Positions 2,600 to 18,233 of a stretch of DNA of 64,000 nt are shown here, piece by piece. This DNA is from Hyunsoonleella jejuensis (GTDB lineage: Bacteria; Bacteroidota; Bacteroidia; Flavobacteriales; Flavobacteriaceae), in the NCBI RefSeq assembly GCF_900111025.1, contig NZ_FOFN01000003.1, positions 434,001 to 498,000 on the forward strand, given 5' to 3'. A model generated the notes under the pieces. The model was given only the letters and a program-made list of their open reading frames with translations. It was not told where the DNA came from and did no database searches. The position numbers were made by a program, and so were the translations under genes. Within the stretch, counting starts at the first letter, position 1. Every line of letters starts with the position of its first letter.

Positions 2600-3166
2600 C
2601 TAGTTATTTACCCAATTCTCTAATATCTTTTTTCCAAATGGTGTTAAAACAGACTCTGGATGATATTGTACACCTCTCACATCATAAGTTTTATGTCTCA
2701 AAGACATGACTTGTCCGTTGGCATCAAAAGACGTAGCTTCTAAACTCTCAGGTAAATTTGGATGTACCACCCAAGAATGATATCGGCCTACTTCTATATT
2801 TTTTTCTAAATCTTTAAAAATATATTCGTCGTTTACGCAAATGGTTACATTAGTTGCAACGCCATGATAAACATCGTCTAGGTTAACCAACGAGCCACCA
2901 AAAACCTCACCTATTGCCTGTTGGCCCAAACAAACACCAAATATACTTTTGGTAGCAGCGTATTTTTTGATAATTGGTTTTAATAACCCAGCTTCATCAG
3001 GAATTCCTGGCCCTGGGGATAATACAATTTTATCAAAAGGTTCCACGTCTTCCAGAGCTAATTTGTCATTTCTCACAACAGTAACATCACAATTTAAATC
3101 TTCCAAGTAATGCACAAGATTGTACGTAAAACTGTCGTAATTGTCTATAACTAATACTTTTTTCAT
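2600..3166 (-). CDS. trpG: Anthranilate synthase component II (glutamine amidotransferase)
   Basis: Hydrolyses glutamine and passes ammonia to TrpE to make anthranilate from chorismate. A class I amidotransferase of 188 residues, the usual length. It shows the oxyanion region SPGPGIPDEAG (50-60), the nucleophile Cys79 in GVCLGQQAIG, and the catalytic His168 and Glu170 in QYHPESVLTPFG. The PabA/TrpG subfamilies are hard to separate by motif, but the position between trpE and trpD supports trpG. It starts one base after the trpE stop, so the two are probably co-translated. Confidence 0.95.
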   Translation of the reverse strand: MKKVLVIDNYDSFTYNLVHYLEDLNCDVTVVRNDKLALEDVEPFDKIVLSPGPGIPDEAGLLKPIIKKYAATKSIFGVCLGQQAIGEVFGGSLVNLDDVYHGVATNVTICVNDEYIFKDLEKNIEVGRYHSWVVHPNLPESLEATSFDANGQVMSLRHKTYDVRGVQYHPESVLTPFGKKILENWVNN

Positions 3167-3167
3167 C

Positions 3168-4574
3168 TTATATGTCTTCTGCTAGTTGAATAGCCTTTTT
3201 TAATGCACCTAATTTATTGTAAACTTCTTGTAGTTCGTCTTCTTTGTTGGATTTTGAAACTAATCCTGCTCCAGCTTGCCAATAGAGTTTGTAGTCTTTA
3301 CTTAAAAAAGTACGAATCATAATAGCATGGTTAAAATTCCCATTAAAATCCATAAAACCTATAGCGCCTCCGTAATAGCCACGGCTCGTTTTTTCATACT
3401 GTTCTATTAACTGCATTGCCCTATGTTTTGGTGCGCCACTTAAAGTTCCAGCAGGAAAGGTATCTGCTACTACTTGCATAGTAGAAGTTGTTTTGTGTTT
3501 GTGTCCAGTAACTTTACTTACTAAATGGATAACGTGTGAAAAGAACTGAACTTCCCGATAGGTTTCTACTTTTACTCGGTTTCCATGGCGGCTCAAATCA
3601 TTTCTAGCTAGGTCAACTAGCATAACATGCTCCGCGTTTTCCTTGTCGTCTTTCTTTAGTTTTTCAGCCAAAATTTCATCTTGCTCTTCATCGCCCGTAC
3701 GTTTAAAAGTGCCTGCGATTGGATGAATTTCTGCTAAACCCTCATCAACAATAAGTTGTGCTTCAGGCGAACTACCAAATATTTTAAAGTCACCATAATC
3801 AAAATAAAATAAATATGGAGATGGGTTAATGCTCCTTAAAGCACGGTAAATATTAAAATCATCTCCGGTATATTCCTGTGAGAAGCGTCTTGATAATACC
3901 AATTGAAACACGTCACCGCGTTGGCAGTGTTTTTTTGCTAACTCTACATGTTCTTTAAATTCTTCATCAGTCAAATTGGACATGATGTCGCCTTTTGAAT
4001 TGAACTTGTAAGACGCAAAATTTTGAACATTAATTAGCTTGTCTATATCATCAATGTTATTTTCAACACCTTCATAGCAATGTGCAAAAATATAAGCCTC
4101 ATTCTTAAAATGATTTATAGCTATGATGTTTTGATAAACTGCATAGTACATATCTGGAATAACAACGGAGTCCTCTTTTTTACCAATTTCAATATCTTCA
4201 AAGTAGCGTACCGCATCATAGGCTGTATATCCAAATATACCGTTGTTTATAAACTTAAAGTTCTCTTCACATTTGGTGTCAAATTTTTGTGTGAAGTTAT
4301 ACACTTCATCAACCACATTAATAGCATCCGTTATTTCTATAGACGTTGAAGTGCCATCAGGAAAGGTTTCAGAGATTACTTCATTATCTACTTTTATGGA
4401 AGCAATAGGATTAAAACAGATGTAAGAGAAATTCTTATGATTCCTATGATAGTCACCACTTTCCAGTAAAATACTATTTGGGTACTTATCGCGAATTTTA
4501 TAATACACGGTTACTGGAGTAATAGTATCAGTTAAGATACGCTTATGATTTGTATAAAGGCTAAATTTTTTCAT
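3168..4574 (-). CDS. trpE: Anthranilate synthase component I
   Basis: Converts chorismate and ammonia to anthranilate, the committed step of tryptophan synthesis. In the 468 residues, the LLESGD motif at 36-41 matches the tryptophan feedback-binding site of TrpE, which argues for trpE over pabB. The chorismate-binding domain shows HPIAGTFKRTG, LVDLARNDLSRHG, DTFPAGTLSGAPKHRAM (about 372-387) and YYGGAIGFMDFNG. First gene of the trp operon. Its leader (4575-4742) carries a Trp-rich peptide and a terminator hairpin, so expression is probably set by attenuation as well as by feedback inhibition. Confidence 0.96.
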   Translation of the reverse strand: MKKFSLYTNHKRILTDTITPVTVYYKIRDKYPNSILLESGDYHRNHKNFSYICFNPIASIKVDNEVISETFPDGTSTSIEITDAINVVDEVYNFTQKFDTKCEENFKFINNGIFGYTAYDAVRYFEDIEIGKKEDSVVIPDMYYAVYQNIIAINHFKNEAYIFAHCYEGVENNIDDIDKLINVQNFASYKFNSKGDIMSNLTDEEFKEHVELAKKHCQRGDVFQLVLSRRFSQEYTGDDFNIYRALRSINPSPYLFYFDYGDFKIFGSSPEAQLIVDEGLAEIHPIAGTFKRTGDEEQDEILAEKLKKDDKENAEHVMLVDLARNDLSRHGNRVKVETYREVQFFSHVIHLVSKVTGHKHKTTSTMQVVADTFPAGTLSGAPKHRAMQLIEQYEKTSRGYYGGAIGFMDFNGNFNHAIMIRTFLSKDYKLYWQAGAGLVSKSNKEDELQEVYNKLGALKKAIQLAEDI

Positions 4575-4616
4575 TTTTTGATGTTTAGACTATCAATAAG
4601 TCAGAATTCAAATAAA

Positions 4617-4642
4617 AAGGCTTGTCGTGAATGACAAGCCTT
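4617..4642 (-). terminator. Attenuator terminator hairpin of the trp operon
   Basis: A perfect 10-bp stem (4617-4626 paired with 4633-4642, AAGGCTTGTC/GACAAGCCTT) with a 6-base loop. On the minus strand it is followed by a U-rich run. It lies between the trp promoter and trpE, not after a gene, so it acts as a conditional terminator. The loop and the first bases of its 3' arm (4625-4631) are complementary to 4673-4679, near the stop codon of the leader peptide, giving a competing antiterminator. Confidence 0.85.
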
Positions 4643-4679
4643 TTTTTATATTTTAAAATACTAAGGTTTTACTTCACGA
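4625..4679 (-). promoter_or_regulatory. Candidate antiterminator pairing in the trp leader
   Basis: On the RNA (minus strand), UCGUGAA (4679-4673, in the last codons of the leader peptide) pairs with UUCACGA (4631-4625, loop and 3' arm of the terminator). An inner CCUU (near 4663) can also pair with AAGG (near 4642), taking the 5' arm. A ribosome stalled at the Trp codons (4699-4707) would leave 4673-4679 free, so the antiterminator forms. A ribosome at the stop codon (4669-4671) would cover it, so the terminator forms. This geometry is inferred and no folding program was run. Confidence 0.6.
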
Positions 4680-4731
4680 ATGTTAGTTTCGAAAAGCACC
4701 ACCACCAAGTATTATTTAATTTTTTATTCAT
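4669..4731 (-). CDS. trpL: trp operon leader peptide with three consecutive Trp codons
   Basis: A 20-codon reading frame from ATG (4731-4729) to TAA (4671-4669). The peptide starts MNKKLNNT, continues WWWC and ends KLTFVK. Three adjacent UGG codons (4699-4707) in 20 codons is far above chance in such AT-rich DNA. It lies about 11-15 nt after the predicted transcription start and directly before the terminator hairpin upstream of trpE. This is the arrangement of TrpL in ribosome-mediated attenuation. The peptide itself should have no function beyond sensing Trp-tRNA. Confidence 0.85.
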   Translation of the reverse strand: MNKKLNNTWWWCFSKLTFVK

Positions 4732-4748
4732 TTAATTCTTTCTGTTGT

Positions 4749-4780
4749 CAAATATAAAAATGAAAATATAATTACACAAT
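4749..4780 (-). promoter_or_regulatory. Promoter of the trp operon (Bacteroidetes type)
   Basis: On the minus strand TATATTTG (4756-4749) matches the Bacteroidetes -7 consensus TAnnTTTG exactly. A TTG (4779-4777) stands 20 bases upstream, the usual -33 distance. Transcription would start near 4742-4744, just before the leader peptide. Position and match are seen in the sequence; activity is inferred. Confidence 0.7.
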
Positions 4781-4803
4781 TGTTTATTAGTTTTTTTAAC
4801 AAA

Positions 4804-4830
4804 AAAACTACCATTAAAAATGGTAGTTTT
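4804..4830 (-). terminator. Terminator of the MarR gene
   Basis: A 12-bp perfect stem (4804-4815 with 4819-4830) with a three-base loop. On the minus strand it is followed by a run of T. It lies just after the stop of the MarR gene and before the trp promoter. It separates the two transcription units. Confidence 0.8.
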
Positions 4831-4856
4831 AAACGTTGTTGAGTTCTAAGAGAGAG

Positions 4857-5318
4857 TTAGTCTGCTATTAATCTAAGTTTGCCCAACAACCTAATCAGTT
4901 CGGTAGTTTCTTCATTGGTTAAAGAATTTACCATATCTACTTCTTTGCTATCAATCAATGTATCAATTTTTTTTAAGAAGCTTAATCCCTCAGCTGTAAT
5001 GCTGATATCAATTTTTCTTTTGTTAGTTGTATTTAATTGTTTTTCAACTAGTCTTTTTTTTATGAGTTTATCAACTAATCTTGTGGTGTTACTCATTTTA
5101 GTAATCATTCTGTCTTGCACCATGCTTAATGAAGCAGGTTTTCCTTTTCTACCTCTTAAAATCCTCAACACATTGAATTGTTGAAGAGAAATATCATAAG
5201 CCTTTAATACTCTGTTTAATTCAGAATGAATCAAACCGCTCGTATACAAAATATTCACCACAACACTTTTTGATAATGGAACGTCAGCATTTAATTTTAA
5301 AATGTCTTCTATTCGCAT
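4857..5318 (-). CDS. MarR-family transcriptional regulator
   Basis: A winged-helix repressor of about 153 residues. The segment NRVLKAYDISLQQFNVLRIL is the usual first helix pair, SLSMVQDRMITKMSNTTRLV with DKLIKKRLVEK is the recognition part, and KRKIDISITAEGL is the wing. I choose ATG at 5318 (MRIEDILKL). An upstream TTG at 5339 would overlap a TACATTTG box (5344-5337) that looks like this gene's own -7 element. It stands divergent to the thioredoxin/rhodanese genes and may control them, perhaps in response to a redox or thiol signal. That is inference; the ligand cannot be read from the sequence. Confidence 0.88.
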   Translation of the reverse strand: MRIEDILKLNADVPLSKSVVVNILYTSGLIHSELNRVLKAYDISLQQFNVLRILRGRKGKPASLSMVQDRMITKMSNTTRLVDKLIKKRLVEKQLNTTNKRKIDISITAEGLSFLKKIDTLIDSKEVDMVNSLTNEETTELIRLLGKLRLIAD

Positions 5319-5442
5319 CTTTAACTGTTGTATATACAAATGTAAGTAAAATTAGCGACTTTTGTCAGTTTTATTTAAATATTTGTTAAACACTATTTTG
5401 CTCTGTTCGTATTGCTTAATTTTATCTTATTAATTAAATAAT

Positions 5443-17836: not shown

Positions 17837-17840
17837 CTTG

Positions 17841-18233
17841 TGGAGTCGGAGAGAATCGAACTCTCGTCCAAACAAGTAACCAAAGGGCTTTCTACACGTT
17901 TAGTCTTTTCTTGTTTTTTCGATTATAAGCTGGCTAAAGACAACCTACTTATAACTTAGCTTCTTAATCTCGAAAGGGCATCAAAGCACTACCCAATCTT
18001 AGTTAATATTTACGATGCCTCTAAAAAGAACGCCACTAACCAAGGCTTTCTGGAGACATTTAGCCTTTCTACCTAGTAGAAATAAGCATGAATCTTACTA
18101 TAATTCAGATTATGCAGCTAAAGCGTAGTTATTCTCGCCGTTTAAAATTTGGTCTAGCCTTTTACGTGTTTCAAAACCATTACACGACGTGCTTACCGTT
18201 CAATTAATCTCGCTGTCAAAACCAGTCGACCCC
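17841..18233 (-). ncRNA. ssrA: Transfer-messenger RNA (tmRNA)
   Basis: Rescues stalled ribosomes. The 5' end GGGGTCGACTGGTTTTGACA (18233 downward) and the 3' end, with GTTCGATTC of the T arm and CGACTCC of the acceptor stem, pair as 7 bp including one G-U. The discriminator A is at 17841 and CCA is not encoded. The tag frame (18139 down to the TAA at 18112-18110) reads GENNYALAA, a normal Bacteroidetes tag ending in the ALAA degradation signal. About 393 nt, one piece, not permuted. A weak TACTATTG box about 10 bases upstream may be the promoter. Confidence 0.96.

Follow-up and report, generated by a model that had tools for sequence, protein, structure and literature searches.

In the trpL attenuator of Escherichia coli, region 2 of the leader RNA pairs with the 5′ arm of the terminator. 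Closer to the locus described here is the Bacteroid-trp RNA family (RF01692), which has an entry in a table of the survey by Weinberg et al. (2010; PMC2864571) and is discussed, as Bacteroid-Trp, in passages of PMC6414381 on the trp operon of Flavobacterium psychrophilum that it precedes. Passages of a transcriptome study of the same species give clues for leader-peptide attenuation at amino-acid biosynthesis operons (PMC9723704), and leader-like short ORFs in Bacteroides thetaiotaomicron are mentioned in part of PMC7366714. In the open-licence literature we found no paper that treats an antiterminator together with a leader peptide in Flavobacterium.

The leader analysed here, located in a 64,000 nt stretch of Hyunsoonleella jejuensis DNA (hereafter the window), is a member of the already catalogued Bacteroid-trp family; this control has been described for the group and does not constitute a new class of regulation. 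As in RF01692, a Trp-rich leader lies 5′ of trp genes with a hairpin predicted over the Trp codons, all 131 model positions are matched at a score above gathering, and the leader ORF holds at least two Trp codons. The model stops at the 5′ arm of the terminator (GGCUUGUC) and includes neither the terminator nor the antiterminator pair, whereas here both are placed and compared against shuffles. The same type of control is proposed for flavobacterial amino-acid biosynthesis operons in the passages on F. psychrophilum (PMC9723704; PMC6414381), but those passages describe no antiterminator, in contrast to the one placed here. An antiterminator supported by comparison, together with its placement, is a useful addition to the known family.

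Organization of the trp Leader

A preliminary description of this DNA had placed a trp attenuator at 4569–4780, a span that contains the entire leader unit and the first bases of trpE. The observation is real and all of the named parts were found on the minus strand, where a TATATTTG box, a leader ORF and an intrinsic terminator follow one another from 4756 to 4614, 5′ of trpE (Table 1). The proposed promoter is present as a TAnnTTTG element, which we take to be the Bacteroidota −7 box; of 119 relatives tested, 116 had a TAnnTTTG no more than 110 nt 5′ of the Trp codons. The 20-codon peptide with three adjacent Trp codons was found as described, and so was the terminator hairpin, although its length had been given as 10 bp and is 13 pairs. 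The terminator stretch (4603–4646) folded at −18.7 kcal/mol (z −6.5), matched by 0 of 200 shuffles. Three terminator-like sites were detected on the two strands of 4500–4900 against a mean of 0.1 in 50 shuffles, two of them being the same trp hairpin, one per strand. The complementarity that had been noted near the leader stop codon was located between UCGUGAA and UUCACGA, and window RNA ending at UUCACGA was predicted to form this antiterminator at −10.3 kcal/mol. In the predicted fold the helix is lengthened by CCUU:AAGG, which also touches the 5′ arm of the terminator.

Table 1. Positions of the leader elements and trp genes within the window.
Feature	Position	Strand	Basis
TATATTTG, −7-type promoter box (TAnnTTTG)	4749–4756	−	Sequence
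RF01692 Bacteroid-trp match	4633–4751	−	Rfam, 54.5 bits, gathering score 49, model positions 1–131 of 131
Leader peptide ORF MNKKLNNTWWWCFSKLTFVK*, 20 aa, WWW	4669–4731	−	Translation
Predicted hairpin 1:2, Trp-codon region with downstream leader, enclosing region 2	4657–4713	−	MFE fold, Rfam structure
Region 2 (UCGUGAA), putative antiterminator 5′ side, adjoining leader stop codon	4673–4679	−	Alignment columns 53–59
UUCACGA, putative antiterminator 3′ side, terminator loop and first 3′-arm bases	4625–4631	−	Alignment, fold
Intrinsic terminator AAAAAGGCUUGUC-auucac-GACAAGCCUUUUU	4614–4645	−	13 pairs (5 GC), 6-nt loop
trpE, anthranilate synthase component I	3168–4574	−	TIGR00564, E 1.3e-128, 429.9 bits, under curated cut-off 517.7
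trpG, anthranilate synthase component II	2600–3166	−	TIGR00566, 179.4 bits, cut-off 121 exceeded
trpD	1516–2517	−	TIGR01245, 305 bits, cut-off 199 exceeded
trpC	734–1519	−	NF001377, 287.6 bits, cut-off 260 exceeded
trpF, continuing in frame into trpB, off window edge	3–737	−	Pfam PRAI

RF01692 was found once in the window's own genome, and the exact hairpin pattern GGCYTGTC-N3-9-GACARGCC at one place. The R1 search of this genome returned 17 matches at E ≤ 10, eight of which were inspected as sequence; none of these eight held adjacent Trp codons inside the match except the leader and its opposite strand (L175). The sequence of one match (L174; E 0.0015) was inspected separately. With a single pattern site, and no adjacent Trp codons in the rest of the eight R1 matches inspected, a second copy of the leader in the genome was rejected. 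Across the whole window, Bacteroid-trp and tmRNA were the only Rfam families to reach their gathering scores, the tmRNA gene lying at 17838–18233 (−).

Conservation at trpE Within the Family

In the window's family, 181 of the 199 genomes searched yielded trpE, and 130 of the 181 upstream regions, mostly the best-scoring, were examined. In 128 of these, Trp codons followed by a terminator lay no more than 400 nt from trpE, and in the remaining two (L019, L023) about 500 nt upstream of it; a Trp-codon leader was present at each trpE upstream examined (130/130). A 98-codon GIY-YIG gene lies between the attenuator and trpE in these two relatives (L019, 1161–1457 (+); L023, 2952–3248 (−)), one of which belongs to the same genus as the window. 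The preliminary description had suggested a comparison among related genomes, and Trp codons, terminator and region 2 all turned out to be kept in the 130 upstreams. Where the leader start was visible (127 leaders), the Trp run was three codons long in 122 and two in 5, and the start codon was ATG in 122.

The alignment comprised 127 rows, without L041 (contig ends within the leader) and L019 and L023 (leader outside the 400 nt). The 9-bp core of the terminator was fully paired in 127 of 127 rows, the rows having been chosen by a pattern that limits the letters of the terminator arms and leaves their pairing unforced. Double changes occurred at four of the nine core pairs (15 cells), which 0 of 500 shuffles reached; for the count of further pair types, 90 of 500 shuffles did so. 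The RNAalifold consensus fold of the alignment recovered the terminator.

Region 2 was conserved in position as well as in sequence: 115 of 119 rows carried UCGUGA 27–28 nt past the first Trp codon. It fell in reading frames 0, 1 and 2 in 85, 31 and 3 of the 119 rows, and the leader stop codon preceded it in 25 rows, overlapped it in 65 and followed it in 29. Because UCGUGA falls in any reading frame, coding for the peptide hardly accounts for its conservation. Its complement, UCACGA, spans the terminator loop and the first bases of the 3′ arm, and antiterminator columns 53–58 were paired in 125–127 of 127 rows. Shifting the partner by 1–3 columns lowered the paired cells from 86% to 20–50%. 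Matches of 7 or more bases to the UUCACGA tail were found in 81 of 128 rows compared to 1.0% of shuffles, and of 6 or more in 124 of 128 compared to 3.4%. Against 500 shuffles the antiterminator stood out in paired cells (0/500) and double-change cells (5/500) but not in covariation score (372/500), double-change pairs (185/500) or further types (43/500). The covariation is thin because both sides hardly vary, and on this alignment the antiterminator within the window's family appears as a conserved pairing with little covariation. In one relative (L122) both sides have changed, UCGUAAAC with GUUUACGA, and three others (L032, L036, L116) keep the pairing through G-U. For a stretch cut after UUCACG, RNAalifold gave the antiterminator with a value of just −1.7 to −2.7. 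A concrete antiterminator is now named and is open to test by paired compensatory mutations.

For the hairpin over the Trp codons (1:2), the window fold of 4633–4751 was weak (z −1.11, with 28 of 200 shuffles as good), and over 128 relatives the leader fold had a mean z of −1.87, with 104 of 128 below −1. All four pairs of its outer helix (columns 20–23 with 75–78) were present in 59 of 127 rows, and hairpin 1:2 was absent from the RNAalifold consensus folds. From the MFE fold and the Rfam structure, hairpin 1:2 may form in the cell.

Stall Geometry and Proposed Mechanism

The preliminary description had expected the leader to follow a stall logic, and the geometry works with assumed ribosome footprints. 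Stall and fold tests covered 119 rows, eight of the 127 being omitted with a segment longer than the available stretch, and the ribosome was assumed to cover 12 nt beyond the first A-site base. With this footprint, a ribosome stalled at the last Trp codon left 6–12 nt between its edge and region 2 in all 119 rows, and a ribosome at the stop codon covered all six region 2 bases in 117 of 119. With the ribosome stalled and the RNA ending at UUCACGA, the antiterminator was predicted in 118 of 119 rows, counting folds with 4 or more of its 7 motif bases. In full-length RNA after the stall the terminator was the MFE structure, likewise in 118 of 119, and an enforced antiterminator was a median of 5.8 kcal/mol worse than the MFE. 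Since the terminator is more stable in the full-length RNA, the antiterminator could act only kinetically, by being first.

The leader ORF, the terminator and the conserved complementarity and spacing can be read directly from the sequence. Taken together with the stall geometry, the conserved Trp codons, terminator and region 2 support the initial reading of ribosome-mediated trp attenuation, and we regard the leader as, in all probability, a member of the Bacteroid-trp family that controls the trpEGDCF(B) operon by ribosome-mediated transcription attenuation. It very likely senses the tryptophan supply via its three Trp codons. With ample charged tRNA-Trp, the ribosome would pass WWW to the stop codon and cover region 2 (UCGUGAA), and with region 2 covered the terminator (4645–4614) would form and transcription would stop before trpE. 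With scarce charged tRNA-Trp, the ribosome would stall on the Trp codons and mask the 5′ side of hairpin 1:2; region 2, thus freed, would capture UUCACGA as it emerges from RNA polymerase, delaying terminator folding so that transcription would run on into trpE. If the leader were not translated, hairpin 1:2 would hide region 2 and the terminator would form. What we infer is the response to tryptophan, the kinetic competition and the formation of hairpin 1:2 in the cell.

The greater stability of the terminator over the antiterminator in full-length RNA would also suit a terminator that is constitutive or merely ends upstream transcription, with the leader ORF working otherwise, by reinitiation or by coupling to trpE translation, and passages of PMC4833913 propose reinitiation at leader genes for Bacteroidetes. 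We consider this very unlikely, however, given that the 94 nt between the leader stop and the trpE ATG are far from the 11–14 bp peak quoted in those passages, and that the MarR-like gene upstream has a terminator-like site of its own. Neither a constitutive terminator nor reinitiation explains why region 2 is kept at a fixed spacing in all frames.

Ribosome-mediated attenuation, the reading we prefer, brings the leader close to E. coli trpL, with which it shares a leader ORF with tandem Trp codons, a predicted mutually exclusive antiterminator and terminator, and the predicted masking of region 2 at the stop codon; a protecting hairpin may be common to both. As in trpL-type attenuators, the terminator lies between the leader ORF and the first gene, and the exclusive antiterminator would be freed by stalling. 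The two differ in that the leader has three Trp codons instead of two and that its main helix lies on the loop and 3′ arm, region 2 not pairing mainly with the 5′ arm of the terminator. We do not regard pairing with the 5′ arm as a trait that defines the wider class of ribosome-mediated attenuators, and see the leader as departing from the E. coli layout only.

Leaders and Helix Placement Across the Class

In a class sample of 247 genomes, trpE was found in 74, at 75 places. A short ORF with adjacent Trp codons followed by a terminator was detected on the sense strand of 49 of these 75 upstreams, compared to 1 of 75 on the reverse strand, used as a chance control. The scripted search found no leader in the other 26, some of which were short (L198, 61 nt; L202, 158 nt; L209, 19 nt), and one of which (L242) had been shortened by the start estimate, the RF01692 and R1 searches placing a match in that genome. 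For L185, the R1 match immediately 5′ of trpE (L158) lacked TGGTGG. RF01692 itself was found in 12 of 247 genomes at E ≤ 0.001, 10 of them above the cut-off, under stricter filters by which weak matches are lost. The direct search, from which one doubtful leader (L234) of the 49 was dropped for the pairing test, gave 48 leaders in 22 families compared to these 12 genomes under the stricter filters, and leaders in this sample (49/75 upstreams) outnumbered those reported by the Rfam model. The R1 search across the class matched 89 of 247 genomes at E ≤ 0.01, a count we set aside because matches beyond the best 30, which were inspected, may be A+T-rich terminators.

The pairing test used one representative of each of the 22 families, including one (L218) whose chosen hairpin is probably not the true terminator. 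Pairing with the own partner summed to −358.7 compared to −298.2 ± 13.7 when partners were permuted, a value reached in 0 of 10,000 permutations, and the own partner was strictly the best in only 2 of 22 families. Of the 22 representatives, 13 had their longest helix on the 5′ arm, alone or together with the loop, e.g., L226 (GAUGAACA with UGUUCAUC), and nine had it on the 3′ arm, alone or together with the loop, including the window and L232, some of these nine being short or doubtful (L214, 4 bp; L239, with an adjacent 5′-arm helix). Tentatively, and with slightly more doubt than confidence, we suggest a loop-capture antiterminator in the window's family, in which region 2 seizes the loop and the first bases of the 3′ arm and not mainly the 5′ arm, which would make the switch purely kinetic and effective over only a few nt of transcription. 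Other families of the class, pairing with the 5′ arm and loop, would then indicate an evolutionary change of layout under an unchanged Trp-codon sensor.

The terminator sequence is conserved beyond the needs of a terminator, which would fit a terminated leader RNA acting in trans as a small RNA, with the loop UUCACGA as the target-binding seed and attenuation as a secondary effect; according to PMC7298713, a trp leader peptide has a trans role in Sinorhizobium meliloti. The exact hairpin pattern occurs only once in the genome, however, and across families the terminator matches region 2 better in cis than when permuted, so that we give the trans-acting role little credence. A protein- or metabolite-binding leader of the TRAP, T-box or riboswitch type, for which nothing was found beyond a conserved structured leader, is the least credible alternative and almost certainly does not apply, as the conserved core consists of Trp codons within a short ORF and, of 16 Rfam matches at E up to 1 in 4500–4900, Bacteroid-trp alone reached its gathering score.

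Operon and Neighboring Genes

The leader is followed by trpE, which starts with ATG, then by trpG, trpD, trpC and trpF(+trpB). Upstream, on the same strand, a MarR-family gene (4857–5339 (−)) lies just before the leader and is separated from it by the terminator-like site at 4830–4804 (−).

trpF and trpB are joined in a single open frame, which in the window's genome (L255, 915–2738 (−)) is a 607-aa ORF holding both a PRAI and a PALP domain; its PALP match has an E of 6.2e-44, and the PALP part is presumably trpB. Single frames of 609–621 aa bridge the trpF–trpB junction in three of four relatives inspected (L256–L259), and in the fourth (L259) the frame begins just 5′ of trpB without bridging. 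The linker between trpF and trpB in L256 has the sequence IPAFAGMT, which resembles a translated interspersed repeat.
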